From the NCBI GenBank assembly GCA_016214995.1, contig JACRML010000055.1, forward strand, positions 1 to 46,381: a stretch of 46,381 nt of DNA. Direction: 5' to 3'. Under the pieces are notes generated by a model that saw nothing but the letters and a program-made list of their open reading frames with translations, had not been told where the DNA came from and searched no databases. Shown here in pieces: positions 454 to 45,636 of this stretch (the first letter of the stretch is position 1; every line of letters starts with the position of its first letter). A program made the translations under genes and the position numbers. Source of the DNA: Deltaproteobacteria bacterium (GTDB lineage Bacteria; Desulfobacterota; GWC2-55-46; UBA9637).

Positions 454-494
454 TTTATCTGTGTAATCGTTTTCAAGAATCTGTGCAAGTAATC
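454..494. repeat. Half element of the ATCTGTGTAATC repeat family
   Basis: In the tolB-pal gap one exact ATCTGTGTAATC (457-468) is followed about 10 bp later by a degenerate copy (ATCTGTGCAAGTAATC, 479-494). This matches the right-hand double arm of the elements at 2223-2293, 3291-3380 and 26274-26744. I see no matching left arm here. Confidence 0.6.
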
Positions 495-2222: not shown

Positions 2223-2293
2223 GATTACACCGATTTAAAGGCGGATTACTTAATACCCTTAATCTGTGTAATCCTCTCAAAATCTGTGTAATC
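2223..2293. repeat. Gene-free inverted ATCTGTGTAATC element
   Basis: The left arm reads GATTACACCGATTTA, then GGCGGATTAC; the right arm carries two exact ATCTGTGTAATC copies (2262-2273 and 2282-2293). The arms are inverted relative to one another. The layout is the same as around the GxxExxY gene at 26274-26744, but with only about 25 bp between the arms. Confidence 0.75.
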
Positions 2294-3290: not shown

Positions 3291-3380
3291 GATTACACCG
3301 ATTATAAAGGCGGATTGCACAGATTAAGGCAAAATAGCAGTTTTTAATCTGTGTAATCATATTTCGAAATCTGTGTAATC
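3291..3380. repeat. Gene-free inverted ATCTGTGTAATC element
   Basis: The left arm has GATTACACCGATTATAA and GATTGCACAGATTAA; the right arm has ATCTGTGTAATC at 3347-3358 and 3369-3380. Paired motifs in each arm and inverted arms match the elements at 2223-2293 and 26274-26744. It ends 25 bp before the OmpA-like lipoprotein gene. Confidence 0.78.
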
Positions 3381-3404: not shown

Positions 3405-4499
3405 ATGAAGCCAGAAACCGGAATGATAAAGAAAGATTCAATATTCAAGATTCAAGATTTAAGATTCAGGTCATCCTTTGCAACTTGCAACTTGCAACTT
3501 ATAACTTTCATCTTACTATTCACTGTCTTGATGGGTTGCGGTATAAACAAGGATATCTACCAAAAGACAGTGGAAGAATCTGAGGCCAGAAAGGCAGGCC
3601 TGGAACAGGCACAGAAAGAGATTGCCCAATTAAAAGATGAGAATGGGCAGCTAAAGAACAGGATAGATGAGTTATCAAAACAGGTTGAAGGGCTCGCCGC
3701 CAGTTTAGATGCCGCAACAAAGGGGAAGCAAGGGGCAGAGCAGGAGATTGAGGCATTAAAAGAGGAAAACCTCAAACTAAAGGGAAAGATAGAAGACTTG
3801 TCAAAGCAGATACAAGACCTTCTCTCCGGGAAAGAGATAGCCTTGCAGTTGAAACAGAAGATTGATGCTCAGGCAGAAGAAATAAATAACTTAAAAAGAG
3901 AGAAAGAAAGCCTTACTGCCAGAACCGAATATCTGAATAGAGAGGTGGAAAGGTTAAAACTTAAGGCAGGTGAACTGAGTACTGCAAAAGAAGAGGAGCT
4001 GGCCAGGGTAAAGGAGACATATGAAAGTCTGATGAAGGAGATGAAGCAGGAGATTGACAAAGGGGAGATAAAGATTACACAGGCCCTTGACAGGCTTTCT
4101 GTAAATATGGTTGAGAAAATACTTTTTGATTCAGGCAAGGCAGAGGTAAAACCAGAAGGGCTGAAGATACTGAACAGGGTGGGGACAATATTAAAAGGTA
4201 TAACCGACAAGCAGATAAAGATAGAAGGGCACACGGATAATGTGCAGATAGGCGCAAAACTACAGAAAAGATATCCCACCAACTGGGAACTCTCCACCGC
4301 AAGGGCAACTAATGTTGTACGGTACCTTCAGGATAAGGTCGGCATTGATGCGAGATTGTTGTCTGCCGCCGGATATTCAGAGTATAAGCCTATTGCAGGC
4401 AATGATACTGTAGAGGGAAGGGCGCAGAACAGGAGAATGGAGATAGTGCTTCTGCCGCTGGATTTAAGCAGTGTTGTGGAGGAGTTGAAAAAAAAGTAG
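3405..4499 (+). CDS. Coiled-coil OmpA/MotB-domain lipoprotein
   Basis: Predicted envelope lipoprotein linking the outer membrane to peptidoglycan. ATG 3405 is chosen because AGGAGG (3392-3397) lies at normal spacing. Residues 1-46 contain a long polar stretch, then a hydrophobic core ending in the lipobox VLMGC; this part is encoded largely by 7-bp repeats (3435-3511). Residues 50-235 are a continuous coiled coil rich in Glu, Lys and Gln (LKDENGQLKNRIDELS). Residues 245-364 are an OmpA C-terminal domain with KILFDSGKAEVKPEG, IEGHTDN, the NWELSTARA helix and GRAQNRRMEIV. It resembles the OmpA/MotB proteins seen in Deltaproteobacteria; the specific role is unknown. It may be a second cell-wall tether alongside Pal. 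Confidence 0.88.
   Translation: MKPETGMIKKDSIFKIQDLRFRSSFATCNLQLITFILLFTVLMGCGINKDIYQKTVEESEARKAGLEQAQKEIAQLKDENGQLKNRIDELSKQVEGLAASLDAATKGKQGAEQEIEALKEENLKLKGKIEDLSKQIQDLLSGKEIALQLKQKIDAQAEEINNLKREKESLTARTEYLNREVERLKLKAGELSTAKEEELARVKETYESLMKEMKQEIDKGEIKITQALDRLSVNMVEKILFDSGKAEVKPEGLKILNRVGTILKGITDKQIKIEGHTDNVQIGAKLQKRYPTNWELSTARATNVVRYLQDKVGIDARLLSAAGYSEYKPIAGNDTVEGRAQNRRMEIVLLPLDLSSVVEELKKK
3435..3511. repeat. Two 7-bp arrays encoding a lipoprotein N-terminus
   Basis: Five units of GATTCAA type (3435-3469) are followed by CTTGCAA-type units (3477-3511). The second array runs straight into the codons of the signal-peptide hydrophobic core. The two consensus units are close to reverse complements (TTGAATC versus CTTGCAA), so partial hairpin formation is possible. 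Confidence 0.8.
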
Positions 4500-4556
4500 T
4501 AAGACAAAAAGGAGGAATTATAGCGAATGGCATAAATAAGTTGACACAGGATTAAG

Positions 4557-4702
4557 AAATCCTAAATCCTAATGTCTAATTTCTAATGAAATCTCCAATG
4601 ACTAAATTTCCAATGTTTTTGATTTTTATTTGATATTTGACATTTTATTAGAAATTAGCCCCCGATTGAATCTATCGGGGGTTAGAAATTAGAAATTCAT
4701 TT
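4557..4702. repeat. Heptamer-rich inverted repeat between OmpA-like gene and DUF362 gene
   Basis: AAATCCT-AAATCCT-AATGTCT-AATTTCT begins a run with 7-bp spacing (4557-4612). CTAATTTCTAA (4576-4586) is the exact inverse complement of TTAGAAATTAG, found at 4648-4658 and 4682-4692. The right arm abuts the ATG of the DUF362 gene, which has no obvious Shine-Dalgarno site. Confidence 0.75.
4659..4681 (+). terminator. GC-rich hairpin, possible terminator
   Basis: CCCCCGAT pairs perfectly with ATCGGGGG around a 7-nt loop. There is no U-tract after it, so it may be a repeat core rather than a true intrinsic terminator. Its position between two gene groups fits either reading. Confidence 0.45.
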
Positions 4703-5859: not shown

Positions 5860-6390
5860 ATGAAAAACAGGGAATCTGATGTAAAAAATGAAGATGTAGG
5901 GGAGGGGCTTGTCCCCTCCCTATATCTAAAACGAAAAACTACCAGATTAATGGATTTTGACTATGCCCAGGCTAATACGGTTTTCTTTATAACCTTATGT
6001 TCATTAGACAAAAGGTAAGTTTTTGTTAGAAATGATTTTAATATAGAGGTTGTAGAATGTATTAAGAAAGAGAGGGAAAGGGTTAATCACGCAGTATATG
6101 TTTTTTGTTTAATGCCTGAACATATTCATCTTTTATCCAGCCCTATAGTATCGGGTATTCCGATTACCCATTTTATGGGTGGATTAAGCAGCCAGATAAC
6201 TCGCTTATCATGGAGATATGGCTTTTCCGGCCGCTTATTACAGCGTAGTTTTTACGATCATGTTGTTCGCAAAGCTGAAGATTTGAGAAGGGTTGCTGAG
6301 TATATGCTCAATAACCCTGTGCGAAGAGGTCTTGTTAAGAGATGGCAAGATTATCAGTATTGTGGATTTATTGATTCAATGCCATTGTAA
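5860..6390 (+). pseudogene. REP-associated tyrosine transposase (RAYT), broken by an in-frame stop
   Basis: A continuous frame from ATG 5860 to the stop at 6388-6390 encodes a Y1-transposase (TnpA_REP) once the in-frame TAA at 6016-6018 is ignored. Before it, TTRLMDFDYAQANTVFFIT matches the RAYT N-terminus. After it come the HUH motif HIHLL, QRSFYDHVVRKAEDLRR and EYMLNNPVRRGLV, with the presumed catalytic Tyr in EYML. These enzymes nick and move REP palindromes as single strands. REP hairpins lie at both sides (5897-5922 and 6442-6467), and the first is inside the 5' part of the frame. A restart at ATG 6112 would leave only 92 residues. The stop makes an active enzyme unlikely unless read through or mis-sequenced. 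Confidence 0.82.
5897..5922 (+). repeat. REP palindrome, left copy
   Basis: TAGGGGAGGGGCTTGTCCCC followed by TCCCTA folds as a stem with one bulged G and the loop CTTGT. It is the inverse complement of the copy at 6442-6467, placing the transposase relic between inverted REPs. Confidence 0.85.
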
Positions 6391-6441
6391 GGGAGACTTA
6401 GTGGTCTTCCGTTCGCGGTCTGTTGTGCGTTGCACGCAGAC

Positions 6442-6467
6442 AGGGAGGGGACAAGCCCCTCCCCTAC
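6442..6467 (-). repeat. REP palindrome, right copy
   Basis: AGGGAGGGGACAAGCCCCTC followed by CCCTAC is the inverse complement of the left REP, almost exactly. A second small hairpin (GTCTG..GTGC / GCAC.CAGAC, about 6418-6441) abuts it. The related REPIN in ugd is at 45158-45216. Confidence 0.85.
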
Positions 6468-25297: not shown

Positions 25298-26275
25298 ATG
25301 ATATCAAGCAAGGATTTGTGCAATATGTCTTTTAACAGGAACAGATTGCAACTTTTGCCATTAAATAAGCGCATCCATGATTTAAATATCTCTGCAATAA
25401 AGGAGCTGCAGGAAAATTCCTTTTCTCATCCATCCTTTAATGTAATTGCAGACAATATCAAAAACGCCAGGAAGGCAAGCAAGTCTGTAATCATGATGCT
25501 CGGTGGCCATGTCATCCGCTCCGGTGTTCAACGATATATCATTGATCTGATGGAGAAGGGTTATATCACATGCCTTGCCATGAACGGTTCCGGGGTTATC
25601 CACGATTTTGAGCTGGCGCTTATCGGTGCGACAACTGAAAGTGTTGCGCGCTATATACGAGAAGGGCAGTTCGGCTTCTGGAAAGAGACTGGACAGATAA
25701 ATGATGTTGTCAATCAGGCTTATCAGGGCGGCAAGCTCGGTATGGGAGAGGCAGTAGGCAGGGCTATTTATGAGGGCAATTTTCCATATAAAGATATTAG
25801 CCTCTTGGCAGCATGTTATCGGCTGAATATACCTGCCACAGTTCATGTTGGCATCGGGTATGATATTATCCATGAACATCCTAATTTTGACGGTGCTGCG
25901 GCAGGCGGCACGTCGTATATTGATTTCTTAAAATTTACAGAGGTTGTTTCCAATCTTGAAAATGGCGTGGTTATGAATTTCGGCAGCGCTGTCATGGCGC
26001 CAGAGGTCTTCTTGAAGGCATTGAGCATGGCGCGGAATGTGGCTCATCAGGACGGAAAGGCTATTCGGCATTTTACAACGGTTGTTTGCGACCTGCATAA
26101 TCTTCCTGAAGATTGCAGCAAGGAACCTTCCAAAGATGACGAGACATATTATTTCAGACCATGGAAGACCATGCTTGCGAGGACAGTGGCTGATGGGGGC
26201 GAGAGTTTTTATATAAAAGGGAAACATGCAGATACCATACCAGCGCTGTGGACTGCCTTAAACAAAATTGTTTGA
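25298..26275 (+). CDS. Deoxyhypusine-synthase-like protein, function unknown
   Basis: I assign this tentatively to the deoxyhypusine-synthase-like fold on the basis of Gly-rich segments and overall order: IMMLGGHVIRSGVQRYI, AMNGSGVIHDFELALIG, LGMGEAVGRAI, ACYRLNIPATVHVGIGYD, DGAAAGGTSYIDFLKF and VVMNFGSAVMAPEVF. These resemble the NAD-binding pattern of bacterial DHS-like proteins, which are not known to modify any translation factor in bacteria. ATG 25298 or ATG 25325 may be the start. Its TGA stop touches the left arm of the GxxExxY repeat element. Neighbours (cytidylyltransferases, kinase, transketolase) suggest a sugar-pathway dehydrogenase or synthase role, which is only inference. Confidence 0.5.
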   Translation: MISSKDLCNMSFNRNRLQLLPLNKRIHDLNISAIKELQENSFSHPSFNVIADNIKNARKASKSVIMMLGGHVIRSGVQRYIIDLMEKGYITCLAMNGSGVIHDFELALIGATTESVARYIREGQFGFWKETGQINDVVNQAYQGGKLGMGEAVGRAIYEGNFPYKDISLLAACYRLNIPATVHVGIGYDIIHEHPNFDGAAAGGTSYIDFLKFTEVVSNLENGVVMNFGSAVMAPEVFLKALSMARNVAHQDGKAIRHFTTVVCDLHNLPEDCSKEPSKDDETYYFRPWKTMLARTVADGGESFYIKGKHADTIPALWTALNKIV

Positions 26276-26744
26276 TTGCGCAGATTATAAGAACCGATTA
26301 CACAGATTAAAGACAAGACCACACAATTTAAAGGAACTTTAAATGAAAAATAGAGACCCGCTTACTGAACGAATAATAGCGTGTTGTTATAGGGTTCACT
26401 CGGAATTGGGACCAGGATTTAATGAAAAAATATATCATACGGCTTTGAAGTTTGCCATTAATCAAGAAGGTTTAAAATTTGAAGCAGAAAAACGATTTGA
26501 GGTTTATTACAAGGATAATAAAGCTGGTTATCTGATTATAGATTTGGTTGTTGAGAATGGGGTCATTGTTGAAGTTAAGGCCTTAACAGGCAACGTTCCT
26601 GATGTTTTTAAATATCAGGTGCTTTCTTATCTAAAAGTATCTAATCTGAAGGTTGGGTTATTAGTTAATTTTGGTAATAAGAGTTGTCAGGTAAGAAGAT
26701 TTGTTTTTAAATCTGTGTAATCCTATTTTGAAATCCGTGTAATC
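26274..26744. mobile_element. Inverted-repeat element carrying a GxxExxY gene (putative)
   Basis: The left arm (26274-26309) has GATTGCGCAGATTATAA and GATTACACAGATTA. The right arm (26709-26744) has AAATCTGTGTAATC and AAATCCGTGTAATC. The arms are inverted, each holds the motif twice, and the GxxExxY gene fills the space between. The same paired arms occur without a gene at 2223-2293 and 3291-3380. The stop codon of the upstream gene and that of the carried gene both lie in the arms. Mobility is inferred from structure only. Confidence 0.55.
26343..26720 (+). CDS. GxxExxY protein (PD-(D/E)XK nuclease-like fold)
   Basis: Small protein of the GxxExxY family (TIGR04256, PDDEXK_3-like); no function is established for the family. 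The signature GPGFNEKIYHTAL (G-x-x-E-x-x-Y type) lies at about residues 22-34. The presumed nuclease core is LIIDLVVENGVIVEVKAL, giving D...E-x-K at about 61-77, followed by the closing LLVNFGNKSCQVRRF. The length of 125 is typical. It splits a run of sugar genes and is bracketed by inverted ATCTGTGTAATC arms; its TAA stop is inside the right arm. I infer it is a passenger or driver of a mobile unit and not part of glycan synthesis. Confidence 0.88.
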   Translation: MKNRDPLTERIIACCYRVHSELGPGFNEKIYHTALKFAINQEGLKFEAEKRFEVYYKDNKAGYLIIDLVVENGVIVEVKALTGNVPDVFKYQVLSYLKVSNLKVGLLVNFGNKSCQVRRFVFKSV

Positions 26745-33450: not shown

Positions 33451-33602
33451 CTATACAGAGCGTCATAACTTCGCATACCTGTGTTGCTCCTCGGTTCGTC
33501 GCTGCGGCGTATGCTGAAAATACACCTCACTCCTCTCCTTCGTCGCGCCGTGGTTTGCTTTGTTCTGACGCTCTGTATGCATCTACTTATGACGTTGTGT
33601 AT
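33451..33602 (+). repeat. MITE-like repeat, copy 1 (inverted partner at 35432-35550)
   Basis: CTATACAGAGCGTCATAACT opens the copy and TTGTTCTGACGCTCTGTATG, then TTATGACGTTGTGTAT close it. The opening text and its complement in the closing part make each copy a long hairpin. The reverse complement of 35432-35550 matches over most of its length; copy 1 has about 37 bp extra in the centre. It replaces the expected 5' flank of the TIM-barrel gene. Confidence 0.8.
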
Positions 33603-34292
33603 CCTATTGTGAGCAAACCCTCCGAGATAACCATTGCCGCAAAATGTGCGCCGGTTGAATCTGCTCTTGACGCAGTTGTGGAAGCAGGTTTAACCGCAGC
33701 AGAGCTCTACACAAACAATTCATGGCTGAATAAGATAGATGAGATTGTCAAGACCTGCGGAAAATATCCTCTGAGATATGCGCTGCATGCCCCTGCCAGC
33801 GGATATGAGCCGGATGTTATATTTAATGCGGCCAAATACATCAAGGCCGAGGTTATGGTCTTTCACAATATCTATTGGGAAGACGAGTGGAAATATATAA
33901 CAGAAAAGTTCAGTCCGCTGAAATGCAAGCTGTGTATGGAAAATGTCTACAGCGCCATTGAACCGGTAAAATATATGCGCAGATTCGGCATCGGGCGATG
34001 TCTTGATCTGGAGCATCTTATTATGGAGGTGAATGGTATATTTGAAGAGCCGTTTTTTGACCTTATAAAAGAAAGTTCTCATATACATATGACAGGCTAT
34101 GTTTTCGGAAGCAAGTTATGGCACACACCAATACATCATGCGCCCGAACAGGGTATCTATTTTCTCAATCTTCTTGAGAAGGCTGGATACACTGGATTTG
34201 TGGTTTCGGAGGCAAAAGAATCTTATCAAACAAGAAATGAATTTAAAGCTCTTTATGATTTTTTTAAGAATTGGAAGGACAGCAGATCATGA
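33597..34292 (+). CDS. TIM-barrel sugar isomerase/endonuclease-IV-like protein
   Basis: Xylose-isomerase-like TIM barrel (AP endonuclease 2 superfamily). Metal-site residues are visible in order: KLCMENVYS (Glu), RCLDLEHL (Asp/His), SHIHMTGY (His) and VVSEAKESY (Glu). The open frame extends upstream through the repeat at 33451-33602, and those codons do not look like protein of this family. I use GTG 33597, which puts VYPIVSKPSEITIAAK at the N-terminus, but no ribosome site is visible and the start is uncertain. The 231-residue length is slightly short, so 5' damage by the repeat is possible. A role as sugar isomerase or epimerase in the neighbouring pathway is plausible. Confidence 0.72.
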   Translation: MYPIVSKPSEITIAAKCAPVESALDAVVEAGLTAAELYTNNSWLNKIDEIVKTCGKYPLRYALHAPASGYEPDVIFNAAKYIKAEVMVFHNIYWEDEWKYITEKFSPLKCKLCMENVYSAIEPVKYMRRFGIGRCLDLEHLIMEVNGIFEEPFFDLIKESSHIHMTGYVFGSKLWHTPIHHAPEQGIYFLNLLEKAGYTGFVVSEAKESYQTRNEFKALYDFFKNWKDSRS

Positions 34293-35431
34293 GGGATTTT
34301 TTATTGCCAATTGTAATCACTCTTTTAGCAGTGCATGCGCTTGTTATGTATTCAATAAAGCCTTATGGATATAACCTATCCAGTATGATTCGCATAAGTC
34401 AAAATGAAAAAGAGGGAGTTGCTAAGGAATATTTTCAAAAAGGCATGGTTATCTTTGATGAAGGCGGCTACGATGGACAATTTTATTACTATGTTGCCAT
34501 GGATCCATTTTTAGAAAAGGGATATTTTAAAAATGCGTATCGCCAGCAGCGCATTCTATATCCTTTAATGGCGCGTTTGTTTGCATTTGGTAAAGGGAAC
34601 CTTCTTCCATATACCCTTTATATAGTGAACTTGACGGCATTGGCTGCCGGGATGTATTTTTTTATTCTCATATTAAGGCGCTACTCATTACATCCGGCAT
34701 GGAGTCTGTTTTATGGACTGTCACCACCTTCTATTATGACCATACAGTATGATTTGCCGTCCCCGGTTAGCATATGCCTGATTATTGCCGCTGTTTATTT
34801 TTACATAAGGAGAAATATTTTTCTTGCTACAGTTTTTATCTCATTCTCATTTCTTGTAAGAGAAGATTCTATAGTAGTTTTACTGCCCTTGTTAGTTTGG
34901 GATTACCAGTGTAACAGACGATTTAAACGGATTATTTTATTGAGTAGTTGTTTGATACCATTTTTTCTCTGGCAGTTATTTGTTGCTGTTAAACTGGGGG
35001 ACGCGCCTATGGCAACCTCTGCAGAGGTAGTAAGTTTTATCCCGTTTTCAGGGATTATTGGCTATATAAAAACAATAGAGTTTGGCGATTTTAAACAGAT
35101 TGGCCGCCAATTCAGCACGCTGGTTATCTTTTCTTATTTTGCTGTCCTATCAGTAATTATAGTAAAGAAATTGTTAAATCTGAGGCATCTTTTTTATTAT
35201 GTGGTTGCAGCCTATTGTTTGCTTACAGTATTTACTGTCCCATCGCAATGGGATAATTATAATGGTCTGTTAAGAATGTTCTATGGGCTCTTTCCATTTT
35301 TAGTCCTTTCTTACTGCGTTGAAAAGGACATATTGATAAGGAAGGCTGTATGTTTTATAGGTGTCTTATCTTTTTTAACAGTTATCAGAATACTTTTTAT
35401 AAGCCCTATATATCCCTTTAGAATTTGGTAA
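34289..35431 (+). CDS. GT-C-like membrane glycosyltransferase
   Basis: Predicted inner-membrane protein of 380 residues from ATG 34289, which overlaps the TIM-barrel stop (ATGA) and follows GGAAGG. After a first membrane helix, a periplasmic loop contains EGGYDGQFYYYVAMDPFLEK and QQRILYPLMARL, a recurrent pattern in bacterial GT-C-like proteins that use lipid-linked sugars. About eight further hydrophobic segments follow. It has no large soluble C-terminal domain. With the TIM-barrel gene it is bracketed by the inverted repeats at 33451 and 35432. The acceptor and sugar are unknown. Confidence 0.72.
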   Translation: MRDFLLPIVITLLAVHALVMYSIKPYGYNLSSMIRISQNEKEGVAKEYFQKGMVIFDEGGYDGQFYYYVAMDPFLEKGYFKNAYRQQRILYPLMARLFAFGKGNLLPYTLYIVNLTALAAGMYFFILILRRYSLHPAWSLFYGLSPPSIMTIQYDLPSPVSICLIIAAVYFYIRRNIFLATVFISFSFLVREDSIVVLLPLLVWDYQCNRRFKRIILLSSCLIPFFLWQLFVAVKLGDAPMATSAEVVSFIPFSGIIGYIKTIEFGDFKQIGRQFSTLVIFSYFAVLSVIIVKKLLNLRHLFYYVVAAYCLLTVFTVPSQWDNYNGLLRMFYGLFPFLVLSYCVEKDILIRKAVCFIGVLSFLTVIRILFISPIYPFRIW

Positions 35432-35550
35432 CTATACACAACGACATAAATAAATCCGCATACAGAGCGTCAGAACAAAGCAGACCAAGGCGCGACGAAG
35501 CGAGGAGCGAGGAGCAACGCAGGTATGCGAAGTTATGACGCTCTGTATAG
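35432..35550 (-). repeat. MITE-like repeat, copy 2 (inverted relative to 33451-33602)
   Basis: Reading the minus strand gives CTATACAGAGCGTCATAACT, then CGCATACCTGCGTTGCTCCT and TGCTTTGTTCTGACGCTCTG, nearly the same as copy 1. It starts immediately after the stop codon of the membrane gene and ends 11 bp before the next gene's ATG. Confidence 0.82.
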
Positions 35551-44212: not shown

Positions 44213-45601
44213 TTGAATATCTGTATTATTGGCACTGGTTATGTCGGACTTGTTGCAGGGACATGTTTCGCAGACAGCGGGAATGATGTGATTTGCGTGG
44301 ATATAGACGCAAAGAAAATAGAAAAGCTAAATAAAGGGGAGATACCTATTTATGAGCCGGGGTTGGAAGAACTTGTTAAGAGGAATACACAGGATGGAAG
44401 GCTTAAATTTACCACAAACCTTTCCTATGGGGTGAAAGAGTCTCTCATCTGTTTCATTGCAGTTGGAACACCGCCAGGTGAAGACGGTTCTTCAGATTTA
44501 AAATATGTATTAAGTGCAGCAAGGGGTATCGGTAATGCAATGGATGGTTATAGGATAATAGTTGATAAGAGTACTGTTCCGGTAGGGACTGCCGATAAAG
44601 TAAGGGCGGCAGTAGAGGGTGAGCTTGCCAAGCTTGGTAAAAAGTATGAATTTGATGTGGTCTCAAATCCTGAATTTCTTAAGGAAGGTGCCGCCATTGA
44701 TGACTTTACGAAGCCGGACCGTGTGGTTATTGGGACCGACAGCGCACATGCTGCGGAGATCATGAAGGAGCTTTATTCGCCGTTTATGCGTAAGACCGAC
44801 CGTCTGATTGTGATGGATATCCGCAGTGCGGAGATGACTAAATACGCTGCCAATGCCATGCTTGCCACGAAGATATCATTTATTAATGAGATTGCAAATC
44901 TTTGTGAGTTGATAGGTGCTGATATAAATAATGTCAGAAAAGGCATAGGAACGGATTCAAGGATAGGATTTGAATTTCTTTTTCCCGGTGTGGGATACGG
45001 CGGTTCCTGTTTTCCCAAAGATGTTCAGGCGATTATAAGAACTGCCGGAGAGTATGGTTATGATATGAAGATACTTAAATCTGTGGAGGATGTGAATTAC
45101 AGGCAAAAGGGATTGATAGTGGATAAGATACTTGAACATTTTAAAAGACAGAATTCTGTAGGGGAGACCCTTGTGGTCTCCCGCAATGATAGGGCGGGGA
45201 CAAGCCCCGCCCCTACAAATTCATTGGCTGGAAAGGCTATCGGTATCTGGGGCTTATCATTTAAACCAAAAACCGATGATATGAGAGAGGCGCCTTCGAT
45301 AACAATAATAAAAAGATTGCTTGATACAGGCGCAAAAATAAAGGCACATGACCCTGAGGCAATGGATGAGGCAAAAAAGGTCTTTGGCAGCAGGATTGAA
45401 TATATGCAAGATAACTACGAGGTTCTTAAGGGCGCCGATGCCCTTGTTATTATTACTGAATGGAATGAATTCAGGAGACCAAATTTTGAAAAGGTGAAAA
45501 ATCTGATGAAAAACCCTGTGATATTCGACGGCAGAAATATATATGACCCCAAAGAGATGAGAAGCCTGGGTTTTACATATTACGGAATAGGAAGGGTGTA
45601 G
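44213..45601 (+). CDS. ugd: UDP-glucose 6-dehydrogenase with REPIN-encoded linker
   Basis: Oxidises UDP-glucose to UDP-glucuronate with two NAD+. TTG 44213 follows TAGGAGGTCG. The N-terminal NAD-binding motif is [52 protein letters not shown] and the catalytic Cys motif [11 protein letters not shown] follow. The C-terminal domain has [19 protein letters not shown] and VIITEWNEF. Between the two domains (about residues 316-336) the peptide [20 protein letters not shown] is encoded by an in-frame REPIN (45158-45216) and has no counterpart in normal family members. The site is a linker, so the enzyme could remain active. It is followed by a UDP-glucuronate decarboxylase gene. Confidence 0.95.
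45158..45216. repeat. REPIN (two inverted REPs) inside ugd
   Basis: GTAGGGGAGACCCTTGTGGT with CTCCCGC forms a first hairpin; after a short spacer, AGGGCGGGGACAAGCCCCGC with CCCTAC forms the second. The outer ends GTAGGGG and CCCCTAC are inverted. The loop text CTTGT/ACAAG and the GTAGGGG border are shared with the REPs around the RAYT relic at 5.9-6.5 kb. Confidence 0.9.
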
Positions 45602-45636
45602 AATTTCTAATTCCCAATTACTAATTTCTAATTCCA
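45602..45636. repeat. 7-bp array between ugd and the decarboxylase gene
   Basis: AATTTCT-AATTCCC-AATTACT-AATTTCT-AATTCCA: five 7-bp units, ending just before the CGGAGGA ribosome site. The unit AATTTCT also occurs in the array at 4557-4612. Confidence 0.78.

Follow-up and report, generated by a model that had tools for sequence, protein, structure and literature searches.

A GxxExxY gene enclosed by inverted word arrays: a probable single-gene mobile unit with gene-free derivatives

Each lineage of the RAYT enzymes has its own repeat word, and the enzyme gene is flanked by these repeats (PMC3116915). A comparable arrangement is found around a gene of the GxxExxY family in a 46,381-nucleotide contig of a deltaproteobacterium (here called the window, meaning this whole stretch of DNA). 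As in the REPIN/RAYT system, the GxxExxY gene is flanked by repeats with their own word per enzyme lineage, and the arms occur mostly as intergenic inverted doublets, at tens to hundreds per genome. The arms are, however, tandem words of 7-12 bp with no stem covariation, whereas REP sequences are palindromes. A first-pass annotation of this DNA had likened the unit to RAYT and REPIN; the likeness holds for organisation but not for kinship, as the GxxExxY enzyme (TIGR04256/PF13366) has a PD-(D/E)XK fold and the RAYT enzyme is of the Y1/HUH type.

Other described systems are comparable in part. The ribosomal (23S rRNA) intervening sequences with an S23p ORF, long suspected to be selfish (PMC4990558), likewise have terminal inverted repeats on either side of a small gene, but the S23p protein, a four-helix bundle, is unrelated to GxxExxY. 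Insertion sequences with MITE derivatives also consist of a gene flanked by terminal inverted repeats, and also have gene-free copies with the same ends; unlike them, the GxxExxY unit (about 470 bp, with a gene of about 375 bp) has no recognised transposase domain and no established target-site duplication. In its fold and E...D...ExK residues the protein resembles the Cas4/RecB/lambda-exonuclease branch of nucleases, from which it differs in being shorter and in an aligned identity of about 11-18%; no CRISPR or helicase context was seen in the window. The GxxExxY family is very widespread and, to our knowledge, has no known function.

The GxxExxY unit and its gene-free relatives

The GxxExxY gene of the window, whose neighbours are a GSU2086-type gene and a gene for an HldE-like adenylyltransferase, is enclosed by inverted arms of two 12-bp words (ATCTGTGTAATC) apiece. 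The elements and words read in the window are as follows.

457..494, plus strand: half element, one arm, with a small insertion in its second word
2223..2293, no strand assigned: gene-free paired-arm element, three good words and a degenerate fourth, upstream of a GGDEF response-regulator gene
3291..3380, no strand assigned: gene-free paired-arm element, four words
26274..26309, minus strand: left (upstream) arm, two words facing the GxxExxY gene
26274-26285: left-arm word GATTGCGCAGAT, by direct reading
26296-26307: left-arm word GATTACACAGAT, by direct reading
26343..26720, plus strand: GxxExxY gene, 125-aa product, PD-(D/E)XK fold, profile matches
26711..26744, plus strand: right (downstream) arm, two words
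26711-26722: inner word of the right arm, ATCTGTGTAATC, by direct reading
26733-26744: second word of the right arm, ATCCGTGTAATC, by direct reading

Direct reading of the four words bears out the first-pass annotation in its description of paired inverted arms, each with the motif twice, around the gene. Its two gene-free inverted pairs were likewise recovered from their words, as was its half copy, placed there at 454-494 and read here as 457-494. It had overlooked the position of the TAA stop codon (26718-26720) within the inner word of the right arm, as well as the usual spacing of words within an arm (21-22 bp).

The window genome (1.98 Mb, 82.5% complete) has a single GxxExxY gene and a large number of the words. 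At one mismatch or fewer, ATCTGTGTAATC was found 342 times (167 forward and 175 reverse), against five (3 + 2) for a reversed-pattern control; exact matches numbered 90 on each strand, against none for the control. The abundance of these words is not a chance effect. Word clusters were read in a portion of the genome: of 39, 38 are intergenic (by an ORF rule under which the window itself is ~92% coding), often squeezed between co-oriented genes, and most are four-word inverted doublets, with a usual spacing of 21-22 bp between the words of an arm and of mostly 15-16 bp between the inner words. When the gene-free elements of the window are folded as DNA, they come out far lower than shuffled sequences (z = -6.0 and -4.9). 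A search for hairpin covariation within the elements found no compensatory pairing: the words are individually conserved, and they vary singly and independently. This behaviour, without compensation across the stem, is what would be expected of protein binding sites and points to a protein that recognises each word rather than a hairpin.

The protein itself matches TIGR04256 at 125.6 bits (cut-off 35) and PF13366 at 119 bits (cut-off 22); Pfam and NCBIfam returned PDDEXK_3/GxxExxY only, and no Y1 (HUH) or recognised transposase domain. Among 62 aligned homologues the G25, E28 and Y31 of the GxxExxY motif are invariant, as are E28, D67, E77 and K79. An AlphaFold model (pLDDT 95.7) matched known PD-(D/E)XK nucleases in Foldseek at probabilities up to 1.00, the best PDB match being the Cas4-type nuclease SSO0001 (4ic1; query TM-score about 0.6), followed by AdnAB, RecE and lambda exonuclease. 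A single-sequence structure prediction (pLDDT 40) was discarded, as was an 18-sequence alignment that was too diverse for a genome scan. Cas4 was also the best PADLOC match of a GxxExxY homologue, although a weak one (E = 7e-4). The nuclease-like fold suggested previously is thus confirmed as PD-(D/E)XK by the model, the Foldseek matches and the invariant residues; the active site is apparently intact, and the protein is predicted to act as a nuclease. Purifying selection acts on the gene (dN/dS 0.10-0.17), and tandem GxxExxY duplicates in one genome (G195) have a dN of 0 at a dS of 0.09-0.15. Among the phages searched, no relative of the query GxxExxY was found.

Arms, words and GxxExxY genes across genomes

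We assessed bracketing with one fixed inverted-repeat (IR) score, with a threshold of at least 30, in two samples: 80 GxxExxY loci in named genomes that represent about 17 phyla and include Methanothrix and Methanoperedens, and 44 GxxExxY genes from the phylum of the window. Inverted arms of 2-4 tandem words are visible around most genes of the first sample, with a word that varies by locus (CACAGAG, CGCAGAG, CACGGAG, CGCCAAG, CGCAAAG, CACGAAG, CCAGGAA and others). The threshold was reached at 70.5% of the 78 scorable loci. Of 708 other ORFs from these loci 2.5% reached it, among shuffles 0.1%, and gene-free copies of such arms flank some of the control ORFs that scored highest. In the second sample it was reached by 82% of the GxxExxY genes and by none of 22 ParE toxin genes. 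The possibility, raised at the outset, that arms flank GxxExxY no more often than other genes is clearly contradicted by these frequencies (70-82% versus 0-2.5%). The association between gene and arms is strong and specific, and apparently unreported in the open-access papers searched, none of which was found to connect GxxExxY, PF13366 or the words with repeats.

About 20-30% of the GxxExxY genes fall below the threshold, and at some loci the gene lies between two complete elements and not inside one pair. Plasmid records from isolates of Bacteroides finegoldii, Bernardetia and Sphingomonas parapaucimobilis also contain bracketed genes, the Sphingomonas unit sitting between fabD and fabG, and bracketing is therefore not an artefact of metagenome assembly. 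The median unit is 466 bp from outer end to outer end, and the median distance from arm edge to gene is 7 bp at the start and 3 bp at the stop. Words in the arms have a period of 8-10 bp in most lineages and of 21-22 bp in that of the window, which places successive words on approximately the same helix face, about one helical turn apart in the former and two in the latter. For CACAGAG-like words, which are nearly identical when read backwards (GAGACAC), the reversed-word control was unusable and a shuffle control was usable (105 vs 28).

Similarity between arms is correlated with similarity between proteins (rho = 0.21, P = 0.001 by Mantel test) and remains so, as a weak effect (rho = 0.14, P = 0.03), when the comparison is restricted to pairs from different phyla. 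The arm word thus tracks the GxxExxY protein more closely than expected by chance. Where a genome has several GxxExxY genes, the words around them differ; in G078, for instance, two loci (L032 and L048) have CACAGAG and a third (L053) has TTCCTGATT. All four GxxExxY genes found in the order of the window use GATTACACAGAT. At the GxxExxY locus of G005 the right arm is missing.

Across 296 genomes of the phylum, 102 with a GxxExxY gene and 194 without, at least 20 copies of CRCRGAGNNCRCRGAG (CRCRGAG-type arms) were found in 27 of the former and five of the latter (P = 1e-9 by Fisher's exact test, indicative only, as the genomes are related). Within the window lineage, G002 (62% complete) being left out, exact words number 180, 24, 147 and 274 where the gene is present; genomes without it have 26, 4, 144, 14, 6, 7 and 37. 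Carriers of the gene have both more copies (P = 0.02) and a larger share of exact words (P = 0.006), these values being likewise indicative given small samples of related genomes. The genes themselves are few, with one copy in the window genome and up to seven elsewhere. That genomes rich in arms might lack the family had been named as a finding that would break the link, and it is borne out only in part: 27 of the 32 such genomes in the survey carry the gene and five do not, nor was one detected in G006, a member of the window lineage with 144 exact words. Many words and no detected gene were recorded for G006, G080, G083, G189, G256 and G260. Such genomes could reflect loss of the gene, missing sequence or another driver.

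Evidence for movement of the elements and competing explanations

G005 lacks both gene-free elements of the window (2223-2293 and 3291-3380) at its orthologous gaps, and conversely the gaps of the window lack elements that G001 and G005 carry there. A comparison of G078 with G116 (about 95% identity) showed four CRCVRAG-type elements in common and five present in only one of the two. In G132, a unit including its downstream arm is present at two unlinked loci, 95% identical over 530 bp, and the homology ends at the outer end of the right arm. A target-site duplication was sought at the polymorphic sites and at the duplicated unit of G132, and none could be established for GxxExxY-type arms; at the polymorphic sites compared, sequence differences often extend past the element into its intergenic flanks. 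With both forms, polymorphic sites and a duplicated unit in hand, the earlier idea that gene-bearing and gene-free units are mobile relatives is strengthened.

We propose, with a probability of roughly two in three, that the GxxExxY gene and its two arms form a compact single-gene mobile unit (~470 bp), that the gene-free pairs are its non-autonomous derivatives, and that the nuclease drives the copying of both. The mobile-unit reading is favoured by arms that bracket the gene across phyla together with gene-free copies in the same genomes, by the statistical link of copy number to the gene, the polymorphic sites and the whole-unit duplication, and by conservation of the catalytic residues and reading frame. 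Against it stand the lack of an established target-site duplication and the flanks that differ beyond the element, the high-copy genomes without a detectable gene, and the genes that score below threshold or lie between two complete elements; we also know of no transposase of PD-(D/E)XK fold that acts alone. It is plausible that the GxxExxY nuclease drives the spread. The protein would bind to the tandem arm words and nick or cut, so processing the element or its target, after which host repair would paste copies into intergenic gaps; it would act in cis on its own unit and in trans on gene-free arms. As the arms overlap or abut the start and stop of the gene, binding there might also regulate its expression.

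Two explanations give the enclosed enzyme no part in the spread of the arms. The arms might be moved in trans by another transposase, above all one of Y1/RAYT type, with GxxExxY as cargo caught between two arms, and Y1 transposase genes are indeed present in 14 of 14 genomes tested, with 12 matches in the window genome. However, the word is absent from all 11 Y1 loci examined there (stretches of 1.5-2.4 kb) and from the Y1 remnant in the window, and some Y1 loci carry different palindromes of their own. Cargo status also leaves unexplained why one family, unlike ParE or other ORFs, is bracketed in about 80% of cases across many phyla, and why the word follows the protein; we regard this explanation as quite unlikely. 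A role of the arms as ordinary regulatory hairpins or terminators, unconnected with mobility, fits their stable single-strand folding and their frequent position between co-oriented genes, yet the window has no Rfam match, the words show no compensatory pairing, and neither presence/absence polymorphism nor specific bracketing of one gene family would be expected, so that we give it hardly any weight.

Two further explanations retain the nuclease in a different role. GxxExxY could be a host or selfish nuclease that protects or maintains word-bearing DNA in the manner of addiction or restriction systems, the arms spreading by recombination or gene conversion and being kept because their loss is costly. 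Strong purifying selection, a fold nearest to Cas4/RecB-type nucleases and the conservation of individual words agree with this; the existence of gene-free high-copy genomes, sites that differ at ~95% genome identity (the five unique and four shared elements above) and the whole-unit duplication do not, and we consider it unlikely. In a homing-type drive, the nuclease would cut gene-free elements and its gene would be copied into the break, making solo elements empty homing sites. GxxExxY is a free-standing nuclease, and at one orthologous site with a shared left arm G078 has GxxExxY where G116 has a four-helix-bundle unit. Homing nevertheless appears very unlikely, since gene copies stay few despite hundreds of potential sites and it is the solo elements themselves that multiply.

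A parallel family and other repeats

A second family, the four-helix-bundle (S23p-like) proteins of TIGR02436, which are unrelated to GxxExxY, has an arrangement parallel to that of GxxExxY. Inverted arrays bracket 21 of 24 scorable TIGR02436 genes (L233-L262, L297 and L298). Their words repeat strictly every 7 bp (72% identity at lag 7), compared with 8-10 bp for GxxExxY arms. The window genome has four such genes, and both of those read (L297 and L298) have 7-bp arrays.

The combination of enzyme and arm architecture fits no known class of mobile element, and in this sense, as judged from open-access literature exclusive of ISfinder, the class would be new. We see an even chance that it is a hitherto unrecognised minimal class, in which a lone PD-(D/E)XK nuclease of ~125 aa acts on recognised word arrays, with lineage-specific words, hundreds of gene-free derivatives, a distribution over many phyla and archaea, and a parallel 7-bp version in TIGR02436. 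If so, the very widespread GxxExxY family would gain a function, and the short arrays of CACAGAG, CGCAAAG or GATTACACAGAT type in many environmental genomes would be explained. Another type of enzyme would join the known bacterial DNA movers, the GxxExxY unit would rank among the smallest single-gene elements, and RAYT/REPIN would have an independent comparison for gene-free repeats that live off an enzyme.

Other repeats were noted in the same genomes. Gene-free tandem arrays of 7-bp words, some as inverted pairs, lie in the window at 1155-1268, 3433-3516, 4548-4697 and 45602-45635; their word types (AGATGCA, AAGATTC, TTGCAAC and CTAATTT) resemble TIGR02436 arms. A decayed Y1 (RAYT-like) transposase with an in-frame stop (5992-6216) is enclosed by a perfect inverted repeat, GTAGGGGAGGGGCTTGTCCCCTCCCT (5896-5921 / 6442-6467), of which a similar copy lies at 45188-45225; the stretch 5896-6467 is probably a RAYT-type unit with a different repeat, in the same window as the GxxExxY unit. 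Inverted repeats of 43 bp (95-98%) with GAGCGTCATAACTTCGCATACC, at 33451-33580 and 35458-35550, frame a stretch with an ORF (34271-35431) that has no Pfam match, and a related copy is found in contig C4 of G005. Between G078 (contigs C3 and C4) and G116 (C2 and C10), word-array insertions of 50-200 bp belonging to several families occur at many intergenic gaps, and one of them, of another word family, has a possible 5-bp target duplication (TAGGG). Hairpins of CTGTTGA/TTGTTGA (GGCTGTTGAAAAAGTC..CAACAGCC) flank about half of the four-word elements in the window genome (G000; contigs C3, C8, C20, C32, C34, C53 and C54), forming composites, and in G001 and G005 the same hairpin lies next to the GxxExxY unit.
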